Of a stretch of 64,000 bases of DNA, positions 48,687 through 63,900 are shown piece by piece. The stretch is from positions 2,604,001-2,668,000 of the forward strand of contig NZ_JAUSXN010000001.1 in the NCBI RefSeq assembly GCF_030816015.1. Direction: 5' to 3'. Numbering within the stretch: position 1 is the stretch's first letter; the number at the start of each line of letters is the position of its first letter. Origin of the DNA: Pedobacter sp. W3I1. GTDB lineage: Bacteria > Bacteroidota > Bacteroidia > Sphingobacteriales > Sphingobacteriaceae. Both the position numbers and the translations under genes were made by a program. Below the pieces are notes generated by a model. The model saw only the letters and a program-made list of their open reading frames with translations. It did not search any database and had not been told where the DNA came from.

Positions 48687-50780
48687 TTAAAATAACTCAC
48701 TTGTACCCAAATGGGCGTTTACAATGCGGGTAATCTGCTGGCCAAGTTCTTTTGCATTGCCAATCCCTACGCTTTTAAGTGCTGCCAGTTGGTCGGTAGT
48801 TCTGGGCATTTTTTCGGCAATAGAAAGTAGTGCTAAGTCAGAAAGTACAGCATAATCCTGGGTGCCCCGTTGCTGTGCGATTGTTTTCCGCCATTCGACC
48901 AGGTTTTTATAAACCTGTGGATTGGAAATCTCTTTTGGTTTGATGCTCGATTTAACCGGTTTTTTCTCCGGTTGTTTATTGCCTGCTGCGTGCAAAGTAT
49001 TGATATAATCTTTGATCGAAAAGGGGTTCCACGAAATTTTAAATAAAGCCAGCTTGATCTGGAGTGCATCTTTACAATCATTTAATGCCGTAAGCAGTTT
49101 ATCAGAGTGTGTATCATTATAAAAGTTGATGGCCACAATTCTAGCCGTTAAGGTAATAAGCTGTTCCAGTTTTGGAACGAAATAATCAGATGCTTTTTGC
49201 AAACGTTCCATAAAAGCACTTTCATTTGCCGGATTTTCATCGGTACTTATTTTAGAAAATTCCTTTGCAATAAAATTCCTGGCTACTTTAAAAATCTCGT
49301 GCTGAAGAATCTGGGTTCCCTGTTCGTAAATAGATAAAAAGGCATTTTTCTCGTCTTTGTCGATCAGTTTGGAACGCCCGAGTTTTTCCCAATCTTTGGC
49401 GATCAGCGAGAAATCCAGCAATTCATGGATCAATCCCCAGGCATATTGCTGACTATAACGTGCAAGCAGATCAGCTGTAGGTTTATCCTGGTGAGTGGTT
49501 TTTGTGAAACTGATGACCTTTGCATCGGTAATGATGTTTTCGGCAACCACAGGTGATTTTAAGATAAGTCCTTCTAAACTTCTGCAACGGCTGAGTGCTA
49601 CGTAAGCCTGTCCGTGGGTAAATGCGGTGCTTACATCAACTATGGCCTGATCAAAGGTTAATCCCTGGCTTTTATGTACAGTAATGGCCCAGGCCAGTTT
49701 AAAAGGATACTGAGAGAATGATCCGGTGCTGGTTTCGTCGATTTTATTTTCTTCGGCACTCAGGCTATATTTAACATTTTGCCAGATTTCTTTTTCTACT
49801 TCGATTTCCCTGCCGCCATTAGTGAAAGTTACTTTTATCGAATCTTGATTAATTGCAGTTATTTTTGCCGCTTTGCCATTATAAAATTGCTTTTTGCCCG
49901 AGGAATCATTTTTGATAAAGATGACTTGCGCACCCAGTTTTAACTGAAGTTTTTCATCGGTAGGATAGGCATCCTTAGGGAAATCGCCACTTACTTCTGC
50001 ATTGAATTCGAAAATTTCTCCTTGTAACTTTTCTAAACAGCCCTGGTTAATTTCGTTAACCAGCTGGTTATGGGTCGTTAAAGTAATGTAGTCATCTTTC
50101 CATTCCTGATCTAAAGATGGATCGTAACGTTCGTTCAGTTTTGCAAGAAGGTCAGCGTCGAGACTGTTTTCTCGCATGCCGTTCAAAATATCCAGAAATA
50201 TGGGGTCTGATTGGCGGTAAACTTTATCTAAAGTAAAGGTAAGCATTGGCGTAGACCTGAAAACCAGGCTATCGAAAAAGTAGGGACTGGAATAGTAACT
50301 CCCCAGGATGTGCCAGGCATCATGAAAAATAGGAGAGAGCTGGTAAAGATCACCAATCATTAATACCTGAACGCCACCAAAGGGGCGGTTAGAGCCTTTA
50401 ACGCGCTTTAAAGTGCGGTCGATAAAATCAATTAGATCAACTCTAACCATACTAATCTCATCAATGATTAATAAATCAAGGCAGCGTAATAACCTTGTTT
50501 TTTCATCCGAGTATTTAAAATTCGTTTCCGCATTTTCATCAACAACCGGAACCAAAGGGCCGAAAGGAATCTGAAAAAAGGAGTGAAGCGTTACGCCACC
50601 AGCATTTATTGCCGCCACAGCAGTAGGTGCAACAATGGCAAAATTCTTTTTTGTGGTATCCCTAATCTTGCGTAGGAGGGTAGTTTTACCTGTTCCAGCT
50701 TTACCAGTTAGAAAAACAGGCTGGTTGGTGGTGGTTAAAAAATCTAAAAGAAGTTGGTTGTCCGGATCGGGCGTATTCAT
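48687..50780 (-). CDS. PIF1-type SF1B helicase with C-terminal HRDC-like domain
   Basis: 697 residues. Motif I is GKAGTGKTT (26-34, Lys32); Walker B is LLIIDEISMV; further motifs are IGDLYQLSPI and, late in the core, WAITVHKSQGLTFDQAIVDV and GQAYVALSRCRSLEGL. The last about 90 residues (YKNLVEWRKTIAQQRGTQDY to the end) form an HRDC-like nucleic-acid-binding domain. PIF1 enzymes unwind DNA 5'-3' and resolve G-quadruplexes and R-loops. It converges on the channel gene. Confidence 0.93.
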   Translation of the reverse strand: MNTPDPDNQLLLDFLTTTNQPVFLTGKAGTGKTTLLRKIRDTTKKNFAIVAPTAVAAINAGGVTLHSFFQIPFGPLVPVVDENAETNFKYSDEKTRLLRCLDLLIIDEISMVRVDLIDFIDRTLKRVKGSNRPFGGVQVLMIGDLYQLSPIFHDAWHILGSYYSSPYFFDSLVFRSTPMLTFTLDKVYRQSDPIFLDILNGMRENSLDADLLAKLNERYDPSLDQEWKDDYITLTTHNQLVNEINQGCLEKLQGEIFEFNAEVSGDFPKDAYPTDEKLQLKLGAQVIFIKNDSSGKKQFYNGKAAKITAINQDSIKVTFTNGGREIEVEKEIWQNVKYSLSAEENKIDETSTGSFSQYPFKLAWAITVHKSQGLTFDQAIVDVSTAFTHGQAYVALSRCRSLEGLILKSPVVAENIITDAKVISFTKTTHQDKPTADLLARYSQQYAWGLIHELLDFSLIAKDWEKLGRSKLIDKDEKNAFLSIYEQGTQILQHEIFKVARNFIAKEFSKISTDENPANESAFMERLQKASDYFVPKLEQLITLTARIVAINFYNDTHSDKLLTALNDCKDALQIKLALFKISWNPFSIKDYINTLHAAGNKQPEKKPVKSSIKPKEISNPQVYKNLVEWRKTIAQQRGTQDYAVLSDLALLSIAEKMPRTTDQLAALKSVGIGNAKELGQQITRIVNAHLGTSELF

Positions 50781-51005
50781 ATCAATTACAAAATTAACCT
50801 ATTCGAAATTGATTTAAGGACAGATTAATTGGTGTTTTATCCACAATTTTATTCAGAAAAGAGGATCAATAAAATGAAAAATAAAATTAAGCACTTGAAA
50901 ATGAGTTTATATTCTTTCTTTTTATGAAAAAATGCGGAAAACATTTTCGAAAATTCAATTCAAATTTGTAACATTGCACTCGCAAAAAAGGATAACCTTT
51001 TTTCC

Positions 51006-51079
51006 GGGCCTATAGCTCAGCTGGTTAGAGTAGAAGACTCATAATCTTTTGGTCCCTGGTTCGAGCCCAGGTGGGCCCA
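51006..51079 (+). tRNA. tRNA-Met (anticodon CAU), elongator or Ile2 type
   Basis: A 74-nt cloverleaf: acceptor GGGCCTA (51006-51012) with TGGGCCC (51072-51078), D arm GCTC...GAG, anticodon loop CTCATAA, T arm CCTGGTTCGAGCCCAGG, discriminator A. The anticodon CAU can decode Met or, if lysidine-modified, Ile. The G1:C72 pair argues against initiator tRNA. CCA is not encoded. An integrase remnant lies just downstream. Confidence 0.93.
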
Positions 51080-51092
51080 CTTACAAAAAGTC

Positions 51093-51122
51093 GCCCTTCA
51101 GGATAGCCTGAGGGGCTTTTTT
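51093..51122 (+). terminator. Intrinsic terminator of the tRNA-Met transcript
   Basis: GCCCTTCAGG, a 4-nt loop, CCTGAGGGGC, then TTTTTT. A strong GC hairpin with a U-run 14 nt after the tRNA 3' end. Confidence 0.88.
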
Positions 51123-51280
51123 GTGTCTTTTAAAGCCGTTTCTGACAATTTTTGATTGTTTCTTCCGATTTTGCGCTTAAGATTCAACAGCATTTTTTGA
51201 TTAATTTAGTAGAGGAAACTTAGGAGCTTTGCTCGGTTTCATCTAAAACTTAGGGGGTAATAAATCTAATATTTGAATCT

Positions 51281-51738
51281 ATGGCAACTGTTTCAGCAAT
51301 CGTAATTAAAAAAGATCAAAAAGCTGATCAAACATGGAATGTGAAGATCAGAATTTGGCACGATAAAAACCGGCTTACATTGATACTGAACATTTCGTGT
51401 CAATAAAACAACTTGGTAAAAAGGATACACTTATCATCAAGGATAACTTTATCTTGATAGGGTTGCCTTCATTACTGAAAGTGTATCGAGATTGGATCAG
51501 CGATAATGATACATTTGTTAGAAGAGCTTCTGCATTTGAAATCCGAGATAAATTGGTTGCTGTTAAAGAAGGTCAGGTGTCCGAAGTAATCGACTTCTTA
51601 GCCTTCTGTAAGGGCTTCATTGATACTAAAAAGAAAACTCCCGAAGCGAGCAGTGCTAAGCCGCTTGTAACCGTCTATAACAGTTTAGTTGATTATTTCA
51701 GATCGGATTACCTGCCTATTACGGAGATCAATTATTAA
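51281..51738 (+). pseudogene. Truncated and frameshifted tyrosine-recombinase (integrase) N-terminus
   Basis: The ATG at 51281 starts MATVSAIVIKKDQKADQTWN and reads VKIRIWHDKNRL, then a frameshift near 51376; the other frame continues YIDTEHFVSIKQLGKKD and ends SDYLPITEINY at 51738. This matches the N-terminal arm-binding and SAM-like regions of Bacteroidota phage-type integrases. The catalytic domain with R-H-x-x-R-Y residues is missing. It lies 200 nt from the tRNA-Met gene, a typical integration target, so it is probably the relic of an island. Confidence 0.75.
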
Positions 51739-51774
51739 TCAAAACTAATCTATACAAGCCCGTGTTCTTATAGT

Positions 51775-52392
51775 ATGCGTACCAAGGACAGAAGGGCCTG
51801 TATTTCAGTCATACAAGAATGGACATATAAGCACCATAAGGGGATATTAATCGGTGGAATCTTAGGATTCTCATTGACTGCGGCATACCTGCTTTCCCGT
51901 AAAAAAAAGAATGCAGGTGTACCTGACGGAACTAAAGAACCCAATTTAAATATGGAAAGGTATATTTTCGAGATTCACACTGATGATGGTGATAAACAGG
52001 CAATAGTTGAAAGTAGCGGTGAATGTTATAGTGTAAGCCTTGACGGACGTTATACCGGCAGTATGTGGCGTGATGAAGGTCGGGGCATGCAGTGGAATAC
52101 TTTAGATGAAGAATTGACTCCTCATCTGTGGGAAATTGCGGGCCAGCTTTCTGAAGCCTTTTCCCGCAAAGGCTTTCCTTCGCTATTGAAGGGTGCATAT
52201 CCTGAAATTATTTCCACAGAATGGAAGAGCAGCGAGACTTTGGAGGTATTGATATCCAATGAGGCTGATCTTGACGTTTTTGGTGTTTTTTTACAAGATG
52301 AAGTGTCTAATCTTGTTGAGTTTGAAGAACATATGGACTTGATCGTAAAAAAACCTGATAACGCGTACTTCATCATTGTTGGCATCAATTAG
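51775..52392 (+). CDS. Hypothetical membrane-anchored protein
   Basis: 205 residues. A membrane helix near the N-terminus (ILIGGILGFSLTAAYLL, about 24-40) is followed by a basic KKKN and a soluble domain of about 140 residues (from NMERYIFEIHTDDGD onward). The soluble part alternates strands and helices with no recognised motif. It follows the integrase relic and precedes PAS kinase genes. No family is recognised. Confidence 0.55.
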   Translation: MRTKDRRACISVIQEWTYKHHKGILIGGILGFSLTAAYLLSRKKKNAGVPDGTKEPNLNMERYIFEIHTDDGDKQAIVESSGECYSVSLDGRYTGSMWRDEGRGMQWNTLDEELTPHLWEIAGQLSEAFSRKGFPSLLKGAYPEIISTEWKSSETLEVLISNEADLDVFGVFLQDEVSNLVEFEEHMDLIVKKPDNAYFIIVGIN

Positions 52393-52801
52393 CATGCCTG
52401 TCAATAAAAAGATTTTATACTTACTTACAAATTCAGAATCCTTTTAGCCATTGATTGTCCTTCTGTGTCATATAATTTCTATAGGCGAAAGTGATTTCAA
52501 ATTTCCTTTCAACCTGTTAAAATTCTTCGGAGGGATTTAAAATATTCTGAGTATTCATGTTTGTAAAATTTATTTACACCTTAATATTAGCTCCTATTCG
52601 CTGTTGTAAAATAATAGTTTCCGTTTTGATCCTAATAATTTGGTTGCTCTGAGATACCCTCCATTAATTGCTTGATGGTAAACCCAAATTGTACTCTCCT
52701 TAAAGTTTTACTGAAATACCAGTAGACAAAGAAAAATAAATTTTAATCGCTATCTTTCGCATAGAATTTTGCAATACAGAAATGTTTGTTCGACTATACC
52801 T
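52393..52801. other. Intergenic region with no gene seen
   Basis: An AT-rich 409-bp stretch between the unknown membrane protein and the PAS kinase. No open frame, RNA gene or strong hairpin is evident in either direction. It should hold the promoter of the kinase at 52802. Confidence 0.5.
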
Positions 52802-53926
52802 ATGGAAGACACAAAAAAACTGAAAGAAAAGCTTGCCCATTACGAAAAAGAAAATGAAGATCTGAAACTTAAGGTTGAAGAACTGACTGATTTCTTTGAA
52901 AACGCTTCGATGCCACTTCACTGGGTGGATGGAGAAGGAATAATTATATGGGCTAATCAAGCTGAACTTGATGCTTTGGGGTATGCAAAGGAAGAGTATA
53001 TCGGATTCCCGATCAGTAACTTTCATGCAGACCAGGAAGTTATACAGGACATACTGACGCGTCTTACCAATAATGAAACACTGCTGGATTATTCCGCCAA
53101 ACTTCAATGCAAGGACGGATCAATCAAGCATGTACTGATCAATTCCAATGTTCTTCGAAAAAACGGAAAATTTGTTCATACCCGCTGTTTTACTAGAGAT
53201 ATTACCGAAAAAATACGAGAGGATCAGCGCAAAAGTGACTTCGTTTCTTTGGTAAGTCACGAATTAAAAACTCCATTGACTACTATCAGTTCTTATAGTC
53301 AGCTACTGATGAAAAACACCAAAAAGGACGAAGGGATAAATTTTCAGGCAGCTACAAAGATTCAGGCTCAAGCTAAAAAAATGACCGCTATGATTCATGA
53401 CTTTCTGAATCTGGCAAGGGTGGAGGAAGGCCAAATACGCCTTAATGAAGAAACTTTTGAATTATATCCATTGGTTGAGGAAATTACCGGAGATGCCCGC
53501 ATATTAGACACCAAGCATAAAGTTAGACTAATTGATTGCGAAGCGGTTACACTTTTTGCTGATCGTGAGAAAATAGGACAAGTCCTAATGAACCTGTTAA
53601 GCAACGCCATCAAATATTCGCCTATGGGTGGTACGATCACTATTGGCTGTAGAAAGCAGCCGGGAAAAGTAAATATCTACGTAAGTGACGAAGGCCTGGG
53701 TATCAGTAAAACAGATCAAAAAAGACTGTTTGAACGTTTCTACAGGGTAACTAATGATAAAGTGAAAACCATAGGGGGGTTCGGTATTGGACTTTACCTG
53801 GTAGCTGAAATCCTGCGTCAGCACAACAGCCAAATTCAGGTTTACAGTCAGGAAGACGAAGGATCAACTTTTCATTTTGATTTAGAAATGGTAATTTCAA
53901 ACAAAACGACTACTTTCAGGTTCTGA
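52802..53926 (+). CDS. PAS-domain sensor histidine kinase
   Basis: 374 residues from the ATG at 52802 (MEDTKKLKEKLAHYEKENED); an in-frame TTG at 52769 is the only longer alternative. A short coiled coil (1-25) leads into a PAS domain (about 30-145: PLHWVDGEGIIIWANQAELD, YIGFPISNFHAD, DGSIKHVLINSNV). HisKA has LVSHELKTPLTTISS with His153; HATPase_c has LLSNAIKYSPMGG, SDEGLGIS and GGFGIGLYLVAEIL. It is cytoplasmic, with no receiver domain. The partner regulator is unknown; the CheY-like gene at 56710 is a candidate. Confidence 0.93.
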   Translation: MEDTKKLKEKLAHYEKENEDLKLKVEELTDFFENASMPLHWVDGEGIIIWANQAELDALGYAKEEYIGFPISNFHADQEVIQDILTRLTNNETLLDYSAKLQCKDGSIKHVLINSNVLRKNGKFVHTRCFTRDITEKIREDQRKSDFVSLVSHELKTPLTTISSYSQLLMKNTKKDEGINFQAATKIQAQAKKMTAMIHDFLNLARVEEGQIRLNEETFELYPLVEEITGDARILDTKHKVRLIDCEAVTLFADREKIGQVLMNLLSNAIKYSPMGGTITIGCRKQPGKVNIYVSDEGLGISKTDQKRLFERFYRVTNDKVKTIGGFGIGLYLVAEILRQHNSQIQVYSQEDEGSTFHFDLEMVISNKTTTFRF

Positions 53927-54009
53927 TAGTACAAAAACCGACTTATGGGTAAACGTGCATTCACGGGTGTAGTTATGGAGAATATGGACAAAAGATGGAG
54001 AATACCTAA

Positions 54010-54084
54010 GAACGATTTATGGGCATGTTAAGCCACGAAATCAAGACACCATTGACCCTGCTTAGCATACTTCCGGTTATTTGA
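54010..54084 (+). pseudogene. Fragment of a histidine kinase (H-box)
   Basis: The gap 53927-54339 has no intact gene, but 54010-54084 encodes ERFMGMLSHEIKTPLTLLSI before a stop, an unmistakable HisKA phosphorylation motif. It is preceded by a stop (TAA 54007-54009) and is probably the remnant of a decayed or recombined kinase gene. The rest of the gap shows nothing further. Confidence 0.55.
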
Positions 54085-54339
54085 ATCGCGGTCAAAGCAA
54101 AGCGCTGACGGGATCATCCATTGCACATGATCACATTCCGCTCCTATAAGAGTTACTACCTTCGCAACCTGGCTATAGTGGTGAAAATATCCTTTACAGT
54201 CTGGTTTAAAATAATTTATCATTAACAAAATGAATGTTGAAAGATCGCAAAATTTGCACAAAAGTGCAGAAATACCCAAAGCCCGGCCGGGCAAGTGGTT
54301 TAATTTGATACCTTTAACAGCTTAATCATATCTACCATT

Positions 54340-55137
54340 ATGAAGTCCCCAATAAAAAGAAATAACGTAAATATCATCGGGAACGGCCAAAAGGTAATTG
54401 TGTTTGCCCACGGTTTCGGCTGTGATCAAAACTCCTGGAAGTTCATTATTGATGCCTTTACTGATGAGTATAAACTTGTCCTGTTTGATTATGTCGGCTC
54501 CGGTAAATCCGATCTGAGCCAATATGACCCGGTGAGATATGGTACGCTTAATGGATATGCACAAGATATTTTGGAAGTCTGCACTGAGCTCGACATTCAG
54601 GACGCCATTTTTATCGGCCATTCCGTAAGTGCTATGATCGGTCTTCTGGCGGCAAAGATTAATCCTGCACTTTTTAAAAAACTTATTTTTATAGGCCCTT
54701 CACCCCGTTATCTAAACGATGAGGGTTATAAAGGCGGATTTGAAAGGCCGGACCTGGAAGCACTCTTCGAGTTTATGGACAACAATTATCTGGGCTGGTC
54801 CAGCGCACTGGCCCCTGCGATTATGGGGAATGCTGACAGACCGGAACTCGGTGAATTTCTGACCAGCAGTTTCTGTTCTACCGATCCCGACATAGCCCGG
54901 GAATTTGCAAAGGTTACTTTCTTTTCCGATAACCGACATGATCTGAAAGACGTAAATATTGAAAGCCTGACCTTACAATGCTCAGATGATATCATTGCAC
55001 CGCTGGAGGTTGGCGATTACATTCACGCAAACCTTAAGGGCAATCAGCTTGTTATAATGAAGGCTACCGGGCATTGCCCCCATATCAGCGAACCAGAGGA
55101 AACCATTACAGCTATTAAAGCTTATCTGAACAATTAA
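54340..55137 (+). CDS. RsbQ-like alpha/beta-hydrolase
   Basis: 265 residues of the RsbQ/KAI2/D14 type. Diagnostic segments: FAHGFGCDQNSW, LFDYVGSGKSDLSQYD, YGTLNGYAQDI, GHSVSAMIG with nucleophile Ser95, IGPSPRYLNDEGYKGGF, CSDDIIAP with Asp217, and GHCPHIS with His245. In Bacillus subtilis RsbQ is required for the PAS-phosphatase RsbP to activate sigma-B. Here the gene is followed after 15 nt by a PAS-PAS histidine kinase (55153) whose first PAS resembles that of RsbP, so the two may form one signalling unit. Confidence 0.9.
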   Translation: MKSPIKRNNVNIIGNGQKVIVFAHGFGCDQNSWKFIIDAFTDEYKLVLFDYVGSGKSDLSQYDPVRYGTLNGYAQDILEVCTELDIQDAIFIGHSVSAMIGLLAAKINPALFKKLIFIGPSPRYLNDEGYKGGFERPDLEALFEFMDNNYLGWSSALAPAIMGNADRPELGEFLTSSFCSTDPDIAREFAKVTFFSDNRHDLKDVNIESLTLQCSDDIIAPLEVGDYIHANLKGNQLVIMKATGHCPHISEPEETITAIKAYLNN

Positions 55138-55152
55138 TTAACCAATCGAACA

Positions 55153-56625
55153 TTGCCGACAGTATATAACAGGGAAAATATTGGGTCGCTGATCGACATA
55201 GAGGCACTTTATCAGTATGCCCCCTGTGGTTATGTATCGTTTATCCCGGATGGGACGATCATTAAGGTCAACCATACGCTACTGGAATGGCTGGGAGAAC
55301 AGGAGGACGATCTTCTTTTCAAAAAAAAGTTTTCCGATCTTATTTCAAAAGGAGGCAATATGCATTTTGAAATGTTTTTCCGGCCTATGATCAATGTTCA
55401 CGGAAAGGTGAAGGAGCTTAGTTATGAGCTGATGGGAAAAGAAGGTGAAATCCTTCCTGTTCTGTTGAGCGCCACTACGATCAGGGATGGTAATAATAAG
55501 ATCGCTGCGATAAACGCGGCACTGTATGAAATCACCGACCGTAAAAAATTTGAAAAGGAACTTGTTATTGCCAAGAAACAGGCAGACCTGGAAAGAAAAA
55601 GGTTTGCTTTCCTGGCCGATCTCATTCCCGAAATCATCTGGACGGCCGATACCTATGGGCATATCGACTATGTCAATGAGCGGTTTTTTCAGTATTTTAA
55701 TATTGATCACCGGATTGTCCATTCCCGCCGTCTTTTGCTCAGAATTCATCCTGAAGAACGGAAATTGTTTATGACTGAATGGCGCGCGTGCTTTGGTACT
55801 GGCAGGGAATTGAATATCACATTGAGGCTGGAAGGTGAACAAGGTATACATAAATGGCATTTGATCAAAGGCGCACCACATCAAGATGAATATGGTAAAC
55901 TTACCAAATGGTTCGGTTCATGCTTCAATATAGACGACCATGTTAAGGCCCTGCAGAAAAAAGATGATTTCATCAGCATAGCCAGCCATGAGCTGAAAAC
56001 CCCGGTTACGAGTTTAAAGGCATCACTTCAGTTACTGGACCGGCTGAAGTCTGAAATCCAGTCGAAGAAGATAATCAGCCTCATTGATCAGGCTATCAGA
56101 AATGCAGGAAAAGTGAACACACTTATTTCTGATCTGCTAAATGCAAGCCAGATGTCGCAGGGACAGCTGCATTTGAACAAGAAGAGTTTTTATATATCTG
56201 AAATCCTAAAAGACTGCTGTAACCACCTCAATGAAGATTTGCATCGAGTAACATTTGAAGGTGACGTGTCACTCACATTGTTTGGCGACCAAGACAGGAT
56301 ATCGCAGGTTATTACAAATTTTATCAATAATGCGGTAAAATATGCTCCCCAGTCAAAAATCATCAAAATCAGTGTCCGGCAGCTAAGCAAATCTATCAAA
56401 GTTGCGGTGATTGACGATGGACCAGGTATCTCAAAAGATAAGCAGGAACATTTATTTGACAGGTACTACCGTGTAGACAGTAATGGTGCACAGGTATCAG
56501 GTTTGGGCCTCGGCCTCTACATCTCGGCAGAAATAATCAGAAAGCACGATGGAACAATCGGTGTAGACAGTTCGCCTGGAAAGGGTGCCAGTTTCTGGTT
56601 TACGATTCCCTTGTCAGAAGAATAG
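55153..56625 (+). CDS. PAS-PAS histidine kinase paired with RsbQ-like protein
   Basis: 490 residues; the only feasible start is a TTG at 55153 (no ATG upstream in frame). The first PAS (about 15-130; YAPCGYVSFIPDGTIIKVN, KKFSDLISKGGNMHFEM) looks like the PAS domain found next to RsbQ in RsbP-type proteins. A second PAS_3-type domain is at about 150-262. HisKA has IASHELKTPVTSLKAS with His279; HATPase_c (FINNAVKYAPQS, DDGPGIS, GLGLGLYISAEII) ends the protein. It is preceded by RsbQ at 15 nt and followed by a convergent CheY-like receiver gene. Confidence 0.92.
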   Translation: MPTVYNRENIGSLIDIEALYQYAPCGYVSFIPDGTIIKVNHTLLEWLGEQEDDLLFKKKFSDLISKGGNMHFEMFFRPMINVHGKVKELSYELMGKEGEILPVLLSATTIRDGNNKIAAINAALYEITDRKKFEKELVIAKKQADLERKRFAFLADLIPEIIWTADTYGHIDYVNERFFQYFNIDHRIVHSRRLLLRIHPEERKLFMTEWRACFGTGRELNITLRLEGEQGIHKWHLIKGAPHQDEYGKLTKWFGSCFNIDDHVKALQKKDDFISIASHELKTPVTSLKASLQLLDRLKSEIQSKKIISLIDQAIRNAGKVNTLISDLLNASQMSQGQLHLNKKSFYISEILKDCCNHLNEDLHRVTFEGDVSLTLFGDQDRISQVITNFINNAVKYAPQSKIIKISVRQLSKSIKVAVIDDGPGISKDKQEHLFDRYYRVDSNGAQVSGLGLGLYISAEIIRKHDGTIGVDSSPGKGASFWFTIPLSEE

Positions 56626-56709
56626 CCGGTGAACATTTTGTTCAGCCACACCCAATTACCTTCCATCCTTTAGGATATTTTTACTCCAGAGCTGGCAAGC
56701 CTGTTTTTG

Positions 56710-57075
56710 TTAACTGTAGCGGATGCTGTGGCCAACCTGTTCTATCAGCTTATATATATCAAAGGGTTTAGCAATAAAACCCTGTGCGCCGCACGAATTT
56801 TCTACCTCGTACTGACTCGAGTGTGCGCTCATCATGAGCACAGGTATTTTTTCAGTGTTATCATCTTTTTTAAGCATTTCACATACATTGATTCCGTTAC
56901 CATCGGGTAAACTGATATCAAGAAGGAACAGGTCTGCCTGATCATGTTTGTCCTTTGACATGAATTCACGAATACTCGAAAAGCTTATCACTTCATATTT
57001 TTCCTCAGTAAGGATCATTTGTATAATATCCCTGATGTCCTGATCATCTTCGAGGACGTATATTCTTTTTGCCAT
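56710..57075 (-). CDS. CheY-like single-domain response regulator
   Basis: 121 residues: acidic pair Asp11/Asp13 region (YVLEDDQDIRD), phosphoacceptor Asp53 in LFLLDISLPDGNG, Lys103 in FIAKPFD. No output domain. It converges on the RsbQ-linked kinase, with stops 84 nt apart, so it is a candidate receiver for that kinase or another of the local ones. It is very similar in build to the receiver at 10972-11340. Confidence 0.92.
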   Translation of the reverse strand: MAKRIYVLEDDQDIRDIIQMILTEEKYEVISFSSIREFMSKDKHDQADLFLLDISLPDGNGINVCEMLKKDDNTEKIPVLMMSAHSSQYEVENSCGAQGFIAKPFDIYKLIEQVGHSIRYS

Positions 57076-57306
57076 AACCTAACCAACTTATTAGGATAAT
57101 AATCGGTAAATGCCTGAAATTGTTTTATATTTTAGCTGGGCTACAGAAATTGAAACTTCCGGTTGTTTTTTATCGTAATGCCGTGTACCCCTTTGAAATC
57201 TGATCAAACGGTGATCTGGTTTTCAAACCTGCCGTCTTTGTTTTTATCTTCCGGTAAATCCCTTCCTGTCTTAAAACTTTCAGCCAGCTTCCATGGTTTT
57301 AACACC

Positions 57307-58836
57307 ATGCAGATTTTATCTCCCACGGCTGCGCATAGCCCGGCAAAAAAATTATATCCCTATCAGCAGCATGCGATCGAAACCCTGTTTGAAAAAATGC
57401 AGACCGGGGCTGATCAGCTGCGCTTGCTCTACCAGCTGCCTACAGGTGGCGGCAAAACAGTTATCTTTTCCGAAATTGCCGATCGTTTTATAAAGGAATA
57501 CCGAAAGAAGGTAATTGTGCTGACCCACCGGCAGGAGTTATGCAAACAGACTTCGCTGGCATTGAAAAACACAGGCGTTTTTAATAAAGTAGTAGACAGC
57601 ACAGTTAAACGGATAGCCAAAAAAGATTATTATTACTGTTATGTGGCCATGGTTGAAACCCTTAAACACAGGATCGATGATGGTTTAATCGATACCGGAG
57701 GGGTAGGCCTTGTGATTGTAGATGAGGCCCATCACAATTCCTTCCACAAACTGCTTAAAAAATTTCCAGGCGCCAGGATAATCGGGGTAACGGCCACACC
57801 TTTTTCGGCAGATGCAGCGCTTCCGATGAAAAGCTTTTACAGTGAGCTGGTGCTTGGAGAGCAGATAAGTTCCCTGATCGAACAGGGTTTTTTGGCAAAG
57901 CCAAAGAGTTTTGGCTATGAGGTAGAACTCAATACGCTGAACAGGGGCATGCACGGTGATTTTACGGTAAGCAGCTCCGATGAGCTATATTCATCCAAAG
58001 TAATGCTCGATCTTCTGCTCCATGCCTACAGGGAACATGCTCTTGGGAAAAAGACATTGATTTTCAATAACGGCATTTTTACCTCACGAAAGGTATTGGA
58101 AGTTTTTCAGCAGGCCGGTTATCCCATACGCCACCTGGATAACCAGACAGAAAATGCAGAACGGGTTGAAATATTAAAATGGTTTAAAAAAACAAAGGGA
58201 GCGATATTAACATCAGTATCCATATTAACTACTGGTTTTGATGAACCGTCTGTGCAATCGGTTATCCTGAACCGTGCTACTACCTCACTTACCCTTTATC
58301 ACCAGATGATCGGCAGGGGAGCAAGGCGTTTGCCCGGTAAAAAGACTTTCAATATTATCGACCTTGGCAATAATGTAGAAAGGTTTGGGGAATGGGATGC
58401 ACCGGTAGACTGGCAGCATGTATTTGAAAGCCCCGAAATCTATCACCAGATCCTGGCAAAGGCAAGCGACGATATCCATCAGATGCCTGCCGAAATGAGG
58501 AACAGGTTTCCCAACAGCACGGGGATAGCATTTGATGTGCTCGCGGCCTATCAAACCGCAATGGAGAAAGGGGAAAAAGCAAAAACCGTGCTCCGCGATT
58601 CCATCAGGCAACATGCAATGATGTGCACTGACAATGCTGAAACGGTGAGCAAGGCATTTGAATTGGCACAGGAACTCGATAAAGAAATCGACTGGAGGAT
58701 AAAACAATACGGCAAATGCATGGGTGCAGTAACCAAAAACTATATAAAGTGGTTGGGCAGCGACTACCGGAGCCGTTTGCACGGCCTGATCGAAAAAATA
58801 ATGTCGAGGCGGGCGGCAATGCGTGCAGCAGTTTAA
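57307..58836 (+). CDS. SF2 DEAH-type helicase/ATPase
   Basis: About 510 residues from the ATG at 57307 (MQILSPTAAHSPAKKLYPYQ); an upstream frame extension to 57163 reads as non-coding. Motif I is PTGGGKTVIF, motif II VIVDEAHHNSFH, motif III GVTATPF. The C-terminal lobe has ILTTGFDEPSVQSVILNRA and LYHQMIGRGARR (motif VI). It should be a DNA- or RNA-dependent ATPase of the broad RAD25/UvrB-like DEAD group; no nuclease domain is seen. It is followed by the DUF3891 gene after 82 nt. Confidence 0.88.
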   Translation: MQILSPTAAHSPAKKLYPYQQHAIETLFEKMQTGADQLRLLYQLPTGGGKTVIFSEIADRFIKEYRKKVIVLTHRQELCKQTSLALKNTGVFNKVVDSTVKRIAKKDYYYCYVAMVETLKHRIDDGLIDTGGVGLVIVDEAHHNSFHKLLKKFPGARIIGVTATPFSADAALPMKSFYSELVLGEQISSLIEQGFLAKPKSFGYEVELNTLNRGMHGDFTVSSSDELYSSKVMLDLLLHAYREHALGKKTLIFNNGIFTSRKVLEVFQQAGYPIRHLDNQTENAERVEILKWFKKTKGAILTSVSILTTGFDEPSVQSVILNRATTSLTLYHQMIGRGARRLPGKKTFNIIDLGNNVERFGEWDAPVDWQHVFESPEIYHQILAKASDDIHQMPAEMRNRFPNSTGIAFDVLAAYQTAMEKGEKAKTVLRDSIRQHAMMCTDNAETVSKAFELAQELDKEIDWRIKQYGKCMGAVTKNYIKWLGSDYRSRLHGLIEKIMSRRAAMRAAV

Positions 58837-58918
58837 CCTAAGCCGGGATTGATGGAAACAGATACCGAAAAGCCGGGGCCGAAAAGGGCAGGCGTTAAGT
58901 TTACAGGGAGGAAAGATT

Positions 58919-59632
58919 TTGATTGTTAATTATTGCAACAGCGGATGGGAAATCATCACCCAAAGGGCTCATGGCCTTTTGGCCGGGCAGATCTGTGCGA
59001 GATGGAAAATCTCCGATCAGCCCCGGCGGTGGGTAGAAACCCTCACGGCTACTACGGAGCACGACGATGTTTTTAACGAGTTTGTCCGTGGTCCGCTGTT
59101 ATCAGATAGCGGCGGACCCCTTGATTTCAAAATGACCGGTTTTGATGAATCGGCCTGCAGGGAAATGATGGATAATGCCATCAGTAAGAGCCGTTTTATC
59201 GCACTGCTGTTTGCAAGACATATTTCTTTTACCCATGGTGCTGAAGCCTCGGCCAAGGCTTACCTTACCGGGCTTAAAAAGCTTGAGAAGAGGTGGGCCA
59301 GGGAAGCTCAGAGCAGCACCGGCGAGGTAGACCGCGCTTATGCTTTGCTCGAATTCTGTGACGCTTTTTCACTGCTCATCTGCCAGGACCAGATTCCGCC
59401 CGAAGAGCGCCTTCTCGAAATCGGCAAAGGACCGGGCGGCACATCTTTCCGGTTTTTTCAGCGGGGGCAACAGCTTATCGTTAAACCATGGCCCTTTGAG
59501 GTCGATAATTTTGAGGTATGTTATGAGCGGCTTACGTTGAATGAAATAACTTTCGAAAACGATGAGGCATTTAGAGCGGCCCTGCGCAATGCAGGGCTTG
59601 AACTTCGAAAGCTGATCATCTCCAGGGAATGA
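58919..59632 (+). CDS. DUF3891-family protein
   Basis: 237 residues. The start is a TTG at 58919 (MIVNYCNSGWEIITQRAHGL); no better ATG lies nearby. Family markers: GWEIITQRAHGLLAGQIC, TATTEHDDVFNEF, GPLDFKM, and RHISFTHGAE. The many conserved His/Glu/Asp residues look like a possible metal site, but the function of DUF3891 is unknown to me. Same strand as the helicase, so possibly co-transcribed. Confidence 0.85.
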   Translation: MIVNYCNSGWEIITQRAHGLLAGQICARWKISDQPRRWVETLTATTEHDDVFNEFVRGPLLSDSGGPLDFKMTGFDESACREMMDNAISKSRFIALLFARHISFTHGAEASAKAYLTGLKKLEKRWAREAQSSTGEVDRAYALLEFCDAFSLLICQDQIPPEERLLEIGKGPGGTSFRFFQRGQQLIVKPWPFEVDNFEVCYERLTLNEITFENDEAFRAALRNAGLELRKLIISRE

Positions 59633-59716
59633 TCTCGTTTTGGTATTCCATCAAACCGATCAGCATAAACCTGTTTTTTAAAAACTTTAGCCGGTTAAGG
59701 ATGGTTATTAATGGTG

Positions 59717-59860
59717 ATGAGAAAATTGGATTCTTTTGAGTGGCTGTTGATCTGCCTGATCCTGGCTACATTTATTACCGGGATAATGGTTGCTTTAGCA
59801 CGTAATGACCGAAAAGCGGCCATTCCAAAGCGTTATCCCGTTGTTGCGTTATGCCGTTAG
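59717..59860 (+). CDS. Putative small single-pass membrane protein
   Basis: 47 residues: MRKLDSFEWLLICLILATFI then TGIMVALARNDRKAAIPKRY and PVVALCR. One 20-residue hydrophobic helix followed by a basic tail, a plausible topology. An ATG at 59711 is in frame as well. It sits between the DUF3891 and GNAT genes. No family is recognised. Confidence 0.5.
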   Translation: MRKLDSFEWLLICLILATFITGIMVALARNDRKAAIPKRYPVVALCR

Positions 59861-59972
59861 CTGCCGGTTGTTAAAGCCTTGATCCATAAATTTACCCTTA
59901 CTTTTACAGCCCGTTTTTTAAGCGCCATCATAATAGTTCGTTTTATCCCTCTACCGTATTCGACATATAAAA

Positions 59973-60425
59973 ATGACATTACCAGAAAAACACTCTGCAT
60001 ACCATTATCAGTTAAACCCGGATTTAACCAGCATCGACTGGCAACGTGTACTCCAACTCTTTCAGGAAATTAATTGGAAACACCGCCTGGCCGAAGAGAT
60101 AGAAAAAGCTTTTAAGATGAGTACTTCCACACTTTTTATCTATGATGGGGAAATGATCATCGCTTTCGGCAGGGTTATAGGTGACGGAAGGTATTATGCC
60201 ATGCTGGCCGATGTGGTGGTAGACCCAGCCCATCAGGGCCGGGGACTGGGCAGATACCTGGTTATGGCGCTGAACAGCCAGTTAGAAAATTATCATTTCG
60301 TTAACCTTAGTGCTGCCCCGGGAGCCGATCGCTTTTATAAGAGCCTGGGGTGGAAAAAGCAGACTACGGCCTATATATGGCCCCAGGGTCCCAAACAGCT
60401 GAGGCAACATTGCGAAAAGGATTAA
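59973..60425 (+). CDS. GNAT-family N-acetyltransferase
   Basis: 150 residues. The acetyl-CoA signature V-D-P-A-H-Q-G-R-G-L-G-R-Y-L (motif A) is intact near residue 88, preceded by the beta strand MLADVVVD and followed by NLSAAPGADRFYKSLGWKK. The acceptor (small molecule, protein or toxin) cannot be inferred. It is alone on the strand between a small membrane ORF and a gap of 530 nt. Confidence 0.9.
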   Translation: MTLPEKHSAYHYQLNPDLTSIDWQRVLQLFQEINWKHRLAEEIEKAFKMSTSTLFIYDGEMIIAFGRVIGDGRYYAMLADVVVDPAHQGRGLGRYLVMALNSQLENYHFVNLSAAPGADRFYKSLGWKKQTTAYIWPQGPKQLRQHCEKD

Positions 60426-60955
60426 AAGGGCAAGCCATCTTGGTGTGACGCCCGGGGATAGTGGCAGCTTTTACCTTGGCGGTAGATTCATTTAATCCTG
60501 TAATTCAATTTAAGACCGGAATTCAGGCCAGAAAAAAGCAGACAAACTCATGGCCGCGGTCAATAAATGGCTTAATAGTGAACCGCAGGAACCGCTTGAA
60601 AAATCGTCTGTCAGGTTTTGTGACATTTAATGATTTTTTCGTACTACAGATATTTCATTTTCAGCTACTCATACCATACCAGCTCTCTTTGAGAAAGAAA
60701 ACGTAATGCCTCCCGGGCAAAAAAACATAATGCATACGCCTGAGGTAACCTGTCCGGGTCAAAAAAAGTACCTTTCCGGAAAAAAAGAAGATCAATTTCG
60801 ATATAGCTGCAATTTTTTCCCGATATTTAAAACTAACCCATGGGTTTGTATGGCTGGAAAGATTACCATTAATTACTGATGCACTGGTGAAACGAACTGC
60901 TAACCTGGTAACTTTTATCCATTTACTTTGCGGTTGTTGAATAAATACATTGTAA
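60426..60955. other. Intergenic region with a possible short ORF
   Basis: A 530-nt gap. A frame at about 60551-60631 reads MAAVNKWLNSEPQEPLEKSS, 26 residues, which could be a small peptide or part of something decayed; evidence is thin. The rest shows nothing. The promoter of the kinase at 60956 should be near 60930 (a TTTACTTTG-like box). Confidence 0.35.
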
Positions 60956-63900
60956 ATGCAAGAAGATCTAACAACAGGTATAAGGAGGTCCTATTTCCAT
61001 GAAATTATAGGCAATGGGCATGAAAGTGATTTTGATCGGGTTAATGAAATGGCCTCACTAATCTGCGATAGCAGGATTTCAGTGATTTCCTTTTCAGATG
61101 GTGCCGAAATTCAGCATAAGGCGATTATAGGGCTCAGCGCTAGTCAACTACCGGCTATCCTGCCATTATGCGCATATCCCTTAAATAGCCATGAAACCTT
61201 TATCGTAGCGGATATTCTTTCCGACAGGCGTTTTAATGAACATCCGGAGGTAGGTGATGAGATAAAGATCAGGTTCTATGCAGGCTATCCCCTTAAAGAT
61301 GCTAACGGGACCGTTCTAGGGTCGTTATCAGTGATGGATACCATGGCAAAGGAAATCACAGCGTCACAGAAGAGACTGCTTTTACTGCTTATCGGAGACA
61401 TCGAATTCCTCATTCATGGAAGGATTAAAAAAGCGGAAAACAGGAATATCAGCCTGCTCTTTGAACATTCTGATGACCTGATCTGTATCCTGGATAAGGA
61501 CTTGAAATTTAAACGGATGAACCCAAGTTTTGCTACCAAATTTGGCTGGACGGAGCAGGAATTAATGTTGAGAACGCTTTTGGATATTGTACCTGCCGAT
61601 GGACTTAAGGAAGCCAGGAAGATTTGGCAGACGCTTAAAAACCGTGAACAGCAGGGAGACCCTACGCATCAGATAGCGATAAAGGGTGGTGGGTACAGAA
61701 TGATTGAATGGACGGCCACATTTGAGGAAGAGGGCGGTGATGTGTTCGCAATAGGCAGGGATGTAACCGCCGATATAGAAAAGAACCAGGCCTTAAAGGT
61801 TAGCGAGCAAAAGTCGAAGGCGTTTTTTGAAAGCTCCCAGGGTCTAATGTGCACACATGATCTTAAGGGAAAGTTAATTTCTTTAAACCCCTCAGGGGCA
61901 AGATCGCTGGGTTACCGTAGGACGGAAATTGTTGGTAAAAGTCTTTTCGACCTCATTCCCCGGGAAAGGCATGCAAATTTGAGGCACTATTTGGCCGATA
62001 TAGTTGAAAAGGGCCATTCAACGGGGCACATGATTATTAAGCGTAAATCAGGCGAGGAACGGTTATGGCTGTACTCAAATACTTTGCAAAAAGACCTTCA
62101 GAGCGAGGCTTATGTGGTGGGGAATGCGGTGGATATTACTGACCAGAAAAAACTGGAGATGGACTTGATTCATACGAGGGATCTACTTGAGGAGACCAGC
62201 GGTATGTCAAAGATAGGTGGATGGGAACTGAACCTCAAGGACCAAAAACTCCATTGGTCTAAAATAACACGCGAAATCCACGGTGTTCCCGATGGATTCA
62301 TCCCGACTATTGACAATGCAGTAGCTTTTTATAGGCCCGGAGCCGATAGGAATATAATTTTAAAAGCTATTAATGATTGTATGCGTACCGGACAGGAATG
62401 GGATGAGGAGCTTCAGATCACTGATTTCAAGGGCCGGGAAATCTGGGTAAGGGCAATAGGCAAGGCTCAAATGTCAAATCAGATGCCTATAAGGGTATAT
62501 GGCACAATTCAGGATATAGACGTGCAAAAACGTGCCCAGATTGAAGTCCTGGAATCCAAAAAGCTCCTGGATGAAGTGCTCTCGGCGGCCACAGGGGTAA
62601 GCATCATTGCAACTGATCTGGATGGGACAATCACGGTATTTAACAAAGGGTCTGAGCGCCTGCTCGGATATACAGCAGAAGAAATGGTCGGAAAACAAAC
62701 ACCCATCATGTTCCATGACCAAAAGGAGGTTTCTGAAATCTGTGCCGATTTCAGCTCCTCAGCGGGCATTGAAGTTGCCGGATTTGGTTTTTATGCGCAG
62801 TGTGCAGACAGTTCAGAAAGGGAGAGGGTCTTCACCTTCATTACAAAAGCTTCCAAACGGGTGAGGGTATCACTGTCCATCACTGCTATAAAAGGGAGCA
62901 GTGGCAGTACGATTGGCTACTTGGGTATATCTGTAGACGTTACCCAAAAAGAGGCGATTCAGCGTGAACTCGCCCTTGAAAAGGCGCTACTGATTGCCTT
63001 CATCGAAAATGCTCCGGCATCAGTGGCCATGGTTGATACCAATATGCGGTTCTTGATCGCGAGCAGAACATGGGTAAAGGCCTATACCCAGATCGAAGGT
63101 AGTATCAAGGGAATGTCCTATTATAAACTGTTTCCAAACCTTTCAAAAGAGCGGAAGGCGGTGCATAAACAGGTGCTTAGTGGCCTCACAATTAAAAAAG
63201 AAGAGGATGTTTATATCGACCCAAAAAATAAAGAATCACACCATATTGCTTGGGAAATGTCCCCATGGTACACTTCTGATCAATCTATTGGCGGAATGAT
63301 GATTTTTACGCACGATATTTCTGCAAGCGTCGAGCACCGTCAGGAGCTCACAGCGGCAAGGTTGCGTGCAGATTTTGCTAACTATGCAAAATCTGAGTTC
63401 CTGGCGAATATGAGCCATGAGATCAGAACCCCTCTTAACGGCGTAATCGGCTTTACCGATCTGGTATTGAAAACGCAGTTGGATGATACCCAACACCAGT
63501 ACCTTAAAATTGTCCATCAGTCGGCCAACGCCCTGTTGGGAATTATCAACGATATCCTTGATTTCTCGAAAATCGAGGCCGGTAAGTTTGAACTTGATAT
63601 CTATAGGTGCGATCTGTATGAAATTGCATGGCAGGCCAGCGATATCACCAATTACCAGATTCACACTAAGAACCTGGAGATGCTGCTAAATCTTCAACCG
63701 GGCCTGCCAAGGTTTATATGGGCAGATGCTCTGCGGCTTAAACAGGTGCTGATCAATCTGCTGGGAAACGCGGCAAAATTTACGGCAGAAGGGGAGATCG
63801 AGCTTAAAATCGAATCCTTGCAGATTAAGGAGAATAATCATCTGCTGAGGTTCTCTGTAAGAGATACCGGGATCGGGATTGCGAAAACCAAGCAGATGAA

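Follow-up and report, generated by a model that had tools for sequence, protein, structure and literature searches.

An RsbQ-type hydrolase encoded beside a PAS histidine kinase in Pedobacter sp. W3I1: a member of the RsbQ/RsbP-PAS class and its variants in related genomes

Results

Gene Content of the Locus

The window analyzed in this study, i.e., the whole stretch of 64,000 nucleotides from Pedobacter sp. W3I1, harbors a gene for an alpha/beta hydrolase which is directly followed by a gene for a cytoplasmic sensor histidine kinase (Table 1). The hydrolase gene ends with TAA and the kinase frame continues in the frame of the hydrolase; the original prediction, made from the letters of the DNA, had the same coordinates (54340-55137 and 55153-56625), frame and 15-nt spacing.

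Table 1. Features of the hydrolase-kinase pair (window positions; residues are those of the respective protein)
Feature	Position	Strand	Basis
RsbQ-family alpha/beta hydrolase ORF, 265 aa, ATG start	54340..55137	+	phmmer; dN/dS
Nucleophile Ser95 codon (FIGHSVSAMI)	54622..54624	+	alignment, letters checked
Triad Asp217 codon	54988..54990	+	alignment, letters checked
Triad His245 codon	55072..55074	+	alignment, letters checked
Gap between the genes, 15 nt	55138..55152	+	sequence
Cytoplasmic sensor histidine kinase ORF, 490 aa, TTG start	55153..56625	+	
PAS1, RsbP-type (residues 25-128)	55225..55536	+	Pfam PAS_9; AlphaFold2; RsbP alignment
Predicted F-alpha helix of PAS1 (residues 66-83), with H71 and F75	55348..55401	+	AlphaFold2 model; alignment
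PAS2, not RsbP-type (about residues 150-257)	55600..55923	+	Pfam PAS_3 (173-255) and PAS_8
HisKA (residues 270-337), phospho-acceptor H279 in ASHELKTP	55960..56163	+	Pfam; alignment
HATPase_c (residues 378-488)	56284..56616	+	Pfam; alignment; fold match
Stretch common to the window and Pedobacter frigidisoli at DNA level, 82%	54298..56625	+	blastn

The best phmmer match of the hydrolase was RsbQ of Bacillus subtilis (1wom/1wpr; E 1.1e-93, residues 2-263), followed by the bacterial hydrolase 3qvm (1.5e-72) and by KAI2/D14 structures, including moss and plant proteins (about 1e-65 to 1e-47), before the values dropped to 1e-14 for other hydrolases. This ranking, with a similarity to the RsbQ family above that to other alpha/beta hydrolases, identifies the product of 54340-55137 as an RsbQ orthologue. 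The triad S95-D217-H245 is intact and invariant across the 21 RsbQ sequences chosen for alignment, and an RsbQ-like hydrolase with a catalytic triad, as had been predicted, is thus borne out by both lines of evidence.

For the kinase, the architecture PAS-PAS-HisKA-HATPase_c was found, with HisKA and HATPase_c exceeding the Pfam cut-offs, and no NCBIfam member was above its cut-off among the matches listed. The H, N, G1 and G2 boxes (H279, N389, D421/G423/G425 and GLGLG at 450-454) are invariant in an alignment of the 12 closest pair kinases. The presence of these domains and boxes agrees with the earlier proposal that HisKA-HATPase replaces the phosphatase domain of RsbP. The kinase model matched HK853, YycG and ThkA (Z about 20), a whole-protein comparison that is dominated by the kinase core and therefore hardly tests PAS1. 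AlphaFold2 predicted a PAS fold for PAS1 (residues 21-130; block pLDDT mostly 87-91) with a putative helix at residues 66-83, in the place of F-alpha; the pTM of the whole kinase model is 0.37, so that the domain arrangement is not reliable. A sequence match of PAS1 alone against solved structures gave nothing below E 0.086.

Just upstream of the pair lies a decayed reading frame with ERFMGMLSHEIKTPLTLLS (window 53999-54080, +), a stretch that appears to be the H box left from a histidine kinase since lost. Another PAS histidine kinase is encoded upstream (52769-53926, +), and a stand-alone receiver protein is encoded downstream in convergent orientation (56710-57075, -). Both were considered as signaling partners of the pair and rejected; as they were not found next to the pair in its nearest relatives, neither can be named as its partner, and no response regulator is conserved near the pair in these relatives. 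A promoter scan upstream of the pair gave sites no more numerous than in shuffles, and no site near the pair fitted a Bacteroidota-type promoter pattern. The genome of the strain also contains two rsbQ fragments (L121, 4215-4313, C1:4627205; L122, 5593-5682, C1:2134587) of 90-99 bp with 91-93% DNA identity to window 54809-54909, inside a duplicated region; the one at L122 is split by a transposase-like ORF.

Conservation of the Pair

Among 198 related genomes, mostly of the same genus as the window, 51 contain RsbQ-like genes, at 65 places in total. One of these places is cut by a contig end and was left out. Among the 64 assessable RsbQ-like genes of the genus (window included), 25 have a gene with an RsbP-type PAS directly downstream, 8 adjoin or overlap a kinase gene of the GAF-PAS type without RsbP-PAS, and 31 have neither a PAS nor a kinase partner adjoining. 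Approached from the side of the PAS domain, a profile built from 44 RsbP-PAS domains yielded 29 strong matches (above 100 bits; next match 84 bits) in the 198 genomes. Directly behind RsbQ lie 26 of them (25 whole and one, L170, with its RsbQ cut by a contig end), and no RsbQ lies in the vicinity of the remaining three (L167-L169). The adjacency of RsbQ and RsbP-PAS, at 26/29 strong matches in 198 genomes, is not due to chance. The search for RsbQ-PAS-HisKA neighborhoods in relatives, on which the original prediction had staked itself, thus revealed a pair that is widely conserved as neighbors.

Beyond the genus, a phylum sample of 395 genomes contributed 22 new places, comprising 18 pairs, one RsbQ next to the other kinase type, two with neither and one that is cut. 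A genome_contigs search, which favors close relatives, gave 20 hits; four loci on the same contigs as genus loci were dropped (L043, L053, L055 and L057, three of them orphans), and all 16 distinct loci carry the pair. Overall, the linkage of RsbQ with RsbP-PAS spans contigs of Bacteroidota, Rhizobium, Acidobacteriota, Gemmatimonadota and Cyanobacteria.

The nearest relative, Pedobacter frigidisoli (L038), was compared by blastn with positions 50001-62000 of the window. The DNA similarity ends at both sides of the pair and the flanking genes differ (Table 1). Identity amounts to 90% for RsbQ, 90% for PAS1, 79% for PAS2 and 80% for the kinase core, and the TTG start of the kinase is conserved. 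The dN and dS values are 0.046 and 0.61 for RsbQ and 0.097 and 1.53 for the kinase, where a dS above 1 makes the value rough; dN/dS is well below 1, and both genes are under purifying selection.

Likeness of PAS1 to the PAS Domain of RsbP

The RsbP-type PAS1 is the most N-terminal domain of the kinase, which is encoded directly downstream of the RsbQ gene. It was compared with the B. subtilis RsbP sequence, which was checked at ten positions named in PMC3183031. In this alignment C10, P62, E72 and P86 are identical, and the characteristic RsbP-PAS residues C10, L13, L48, Q53, F55, C56, Y59, E72 and P86 correspond to C25, V28, I64, N69, H71, F72, F75, E88 and P102, i.e., identity at three of the nine relative to the B. 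subtilis sequence. The alignment and the profile matches behind RsbQ are in line with the predicted resemblance of the first PAS to that of RsbP.

H71 and F75 are the counterparts of RsbP F55 and Y59, giving H/F here vs. F/Y in B. subtilis; matching the class letters to positions by inference, H71 fits the aromatic class and F75 lies outside the H/Y class. Across 57 pairs, the combinations at positions 55/59 were F/H (21), Y/H (13), H/F (10) and Y/V (5), together with the rarer Y/F (2), H/Y (2), F/Y, F/Q, L/Q and Y/I (1 each), and all ten H/F cases are the window pair and its closest pairs. A DIT-like EITDR follows PAS1 in the window kinase. Within the window's branch, taken as the 10 closest pairs together with L063, L064 and the six DHp-only loci, 12/18 members have the corresponding motif [DEN][IVL][TS], vs. 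5/39 others. The class delineated in 2011 has H/Y at position 59 and no DIT motif after the PAS (PMC3183031); as the absence of DIT was a trait observed in that set and not its definition, we keep the window pair in the RsbQ/RsbP-PAS module. Judged from these residues, the changes in the window's branch would be modest, with H/F at the RsbQ-binding positions and a DIT-like motif kept.

Partner Outputs and RsbQ Outside the Pair

Pfam called HATPase_c in 50 of 59 partner proteins (the window, 24 genus, 16 contig and 18 phylum loci), and neither a PPM phosphatase nor a GGDEF domain is among the Pfam families listed for these 59. Nine lack HATPase_c: L052 and L065 are truncated at contig ends, and the other seven are complete proteins that terminate after the HisKA hairpin, namely six Pedobacter loci beside RsbQ (L066, L067, L072, L073, L096, L112) and Acidobacteriales L045. 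Three further DHp-only RsbP-PAS proteins have no adjoining RsbQ (L167, L168, L169). All nine DHp-only proteins of the genus share SH..R(K/R)P and end shortly past the second helix; HisKA was called in 8/9 of them, or in 9/10 members when the window is counted. These proteins fall outside the output classes given in the text of PMC3183031. At L045 (5513-6793, +), a pair in an Acidobacteriales MAG, the partner carries two PAS domains, one of them an RsbP-PAS, and the HisKA-like helix HQINNPLQ, but no ATPase, and is apparently a second, separate case of DHp-only output.

At nine loci (L113-L120, L165), RsbQ-like paralogues that are 42-48% identical to the window protein and keep the triad positions lie directly before, or overlap, a HisKA kinase without RsbP-PAS. 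The N-terminus of these kinases models as a putative GAF plus PAS (Z about 16 to a phytochrome GAF); the kinase at L114 is a hybrid with two receiver stretches by Pfam. Orphan RsbQ genes occur in the genome of the strain itself (L097, C1:2016462-2017235) and at 30 further genus loci, all in one syntenic place. Their neighbors, named by eye, are TspO-like, patatin-like and peptidase genes, a PAS gene being absent, and a convergent response-regulator gene is close by in 15/31 loci. In the members aligned, orphans carry GHFPH or GHYPH vs. GHCP in paired RsbQ. In 22/31 orphan-bearing genomes no RsbP-PAS match was obtained at E 1e-12, scoring 20 candidates per genome, by which some may be missed.

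A tree of 103 RsbQ proteins, rooted at the midpoint only and with some long branches, placed the 31 orphans in one group (100/100) nested in a set of 41 (100/99) whose other members are the window RsbQ and those of nine further pairs. A long branch carries all nine paralogues associated with GAF-PAS kinases as a single group (100/100), and the six Pedobacter DHp-only RsbQs also group together (100/99). In this topology, the simplest reading would be loss of the partner in the orphan lineage.

Partial correlations were 0.44 for RsbQ and PAS1 given the kinase and 0.42 for RsbQ and the kinase given PAS1, with overlapping bootstrap ranges. A special bond between RsbQ and PAS1 was consequently rejected as a reading of the mirror-tree, the signal being no greater than that between RsbQ and the kinase. 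Five RsbQ columns vary together with PAS position 59 (e.g., M32 to S/T/A, E173 to F); co-adaptation with this position was likewise discarded, as these columns follow the clade and are indistinguishable from shared descent.

Discussion

The gene identities, the catalytic residues, the gene linkage and the purifying selection are direct observations on the Pedobacter pair. On this basis, it probably (at roughly 75%) constitutes a bipartite sensor of the RsbQ/RsbP-PAS type with histidine kinase output, in which the hydrolase would contact the PAS domain. We favor contact because the pair agrees in gene order, PAS type and triad with a system for which experiments have demonstrated it. In B. subtilis, RsbQ contacts the F-alpha helix of the PAS domain, which is necessary and sufficient for RsbQ binding; RsbP L48A, F55A, Y59A and E72A are null, F55A and Y59A disturb the RsbQ-RsbP two-hybrid interaction, and F55A also affects the pull-down (PMC3183031). 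Here, RsbQ would bind a small molecule in its Ser-His-Asp pocket and dock on the F-alpha helix of PAS1 in the kinase dimer. PAS1 could be altered either by the occupancy of RsbQ or by a product passed on when the two touch, and this change would pass via the post-PAS1 helix, PAS2 and a further helix into HisKA. As a result, autophosphorylation of H279 would be altered, and with it the phosphorylation of a response regulator whose gene lies elsewhere. What we infer for this pair is the contact between RsbQ and PAS1 and its sign, as well as ligand and response regulator. Against contact stand F at position 59, outside the H/Y class of 2011, H at position 55 and the presence of EITDR, distances that fail to single out PAS1 over the kinase core, and the RsbQ-like genes of the genus that lack a PAS neighbor or lie beside a GAF-PAS kinase.

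Ligand binding is common among PAS folds, and the hydrolase, whose triad is intact, might instead make a free, diffusing small molecule for the PAS1 pocket, which would render docking unnecessary. The catalytic triad of RsbQ is indeed required in B. subtilis (PMC3183031). However, F55A breaks the RsbQ-RsbP interaction in two-hybrid and pull-down assays and is null in vivo (PMC3183031), and a diffusing product needs no tight gene linkage, yet 26/29 PAS matches are linked. As RsbQ contacts the F-alpha helix in B. subtilis (PMC3183031), direct contact is favored over a merely diffusible product, which we regard as improbable. Still more remote is the idea that the hydrolase is a metabolic enzyme merely sharing an operon with a PAS kinase. 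The 31 RsbQ-like genes of the genus without a PAS partner could have a job of their own, but the linkage to one special PAS type is kept across contigs of five bacterial groups, and the window and P. frigidisoli have the bare cassette in common, so that we consider this very unlikely.

Within the contact reading, two models were put forward in PMC3183031: a product is handed over by contact, or the hydrolase itself is the receptor (Model 2). In the latter case, the hydrolase would act like KAI2/D14, with PAS1 reading the occupancy of the pocket and hydrolysis only resetting it. In the phmmer ranking, KAI2 and D14 structures come right behind RsbQ and one other bacterial hydrolase, which would fit with this, as would an AlphaFold2 model of two RsbP and two RsbQ that places RsbQ between the PAS domains and the linker (eLife 2025; PMC12143880). 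Nothing in our data separates occupancy from product hand-over, and we see a near-even chance for the receptor. The "ligand-producing" hydrolase of the original prediction corresponds to only one of the two models of PMC3183031, and the B. subtilis data show that direct contact is needed whichever partner senses. The pairing was recognized correctly, but the suggestion that a kinase version would extend the RsbQ principle to two-component signaling has been in print since 2011 (PMC3183031).

More surprising than the pair itself are the DHp-only partners, the GAF-PAS partners and the orphans. With 31/64 RsbQ-like genes of the genus lacking a PAS neighbor and 8 beside a GAF-PAS kinase, RsbQ is evidently usable otherwise. 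Tentatively, and at somewhat less than even odds, the RsbQ sensor may have been retuned in the Pedobacter/Mucilaginibacter branch, to which the window pair belongs, and have spread there past the rules published for it, serving as a general plug-in receptor for several unrelated sensor domains. This proposal draws on H/F, Y/F or Y/V at positions 55/59 instead of F/H, Y/H or F/Y, on a sister lineage with a DHp hairpin and conserved histidine and no ATPase, and on a deeper RsbQ paralogue on a GAF-PAS kinase together with another lineage whose RsbQ has no neighboring partner. No description of DHp-only or GAF-PAS partners of RsbQ was found in a search of titles and abstract openings, with most subscription journals outside its scope. 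A literature search for RsbQ and Pedobacter was without match, and one for RsbQ and Bacteroidetes returned a Chryseobacterium genome comparison.

While the pair itself is one more case of the class described in 2011, as a compact kinase version from a soil-type bacterium it offers a second system for finding the RsbQ ligand. The plant relatives of RsbQ, KAI2 and D14, are hormone receptors, and the endogenous KAI2 ligand is still undiscovered (PMC10504578). Moreover, an orphan RsbQ lineage and GAF-PAS partners in one genus lead to the question of what RsbQ needs from a partner.

The window hydrolase is homologous to the plant KAI2/D14 receptors, which are alpha/beta hydrolases too, and shares their triad; unlike them, it adjoins a PAS kinase. 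The plant KAI2/D14 proteins act through F-box partners. With RsbQ-RsbP of B. subtilis, the pair shares an orthologous hydrolase (E 1e-93), a PAS domain directly downstream and an identical gene order, whereas a kinase replaces the PPM phosphatase and a second PAS takes the position of the long coiled coil. A sigma-B circuit would not be expected in Bacteroidota.

The closest counterparts are the modules of Nadezhdin, Brody and Price (2011; PMC3183031), who described 45 adjacent RsbQ/RsbP-PAS pairs with PPM, histidine kinase (in Gram-negatives) or GGDEF outputs, RsbP-PAS always N-terminal, RsbQ always upstream and additional PAS domains in five of the 45 proteins. The eLife 2025 study cites this work for histidine kinases across phyla (PMC12143880), and the 2011 text, Figure 2 aside, has no mention of Bacteroidetes or Pedobacter. 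Like the histidine kinase modules of 2011, the window pair has RsbQ directly upstream, an N-terminal RsbP-type PAS, a Gram-negative kinase output and an extra PAS; unlike them, its PAS1 carries H/F where F/H or F/Y is common, and the DIT-like EITDR. The pair thus belongs to a published class and is new in lineage detail, not in kind.
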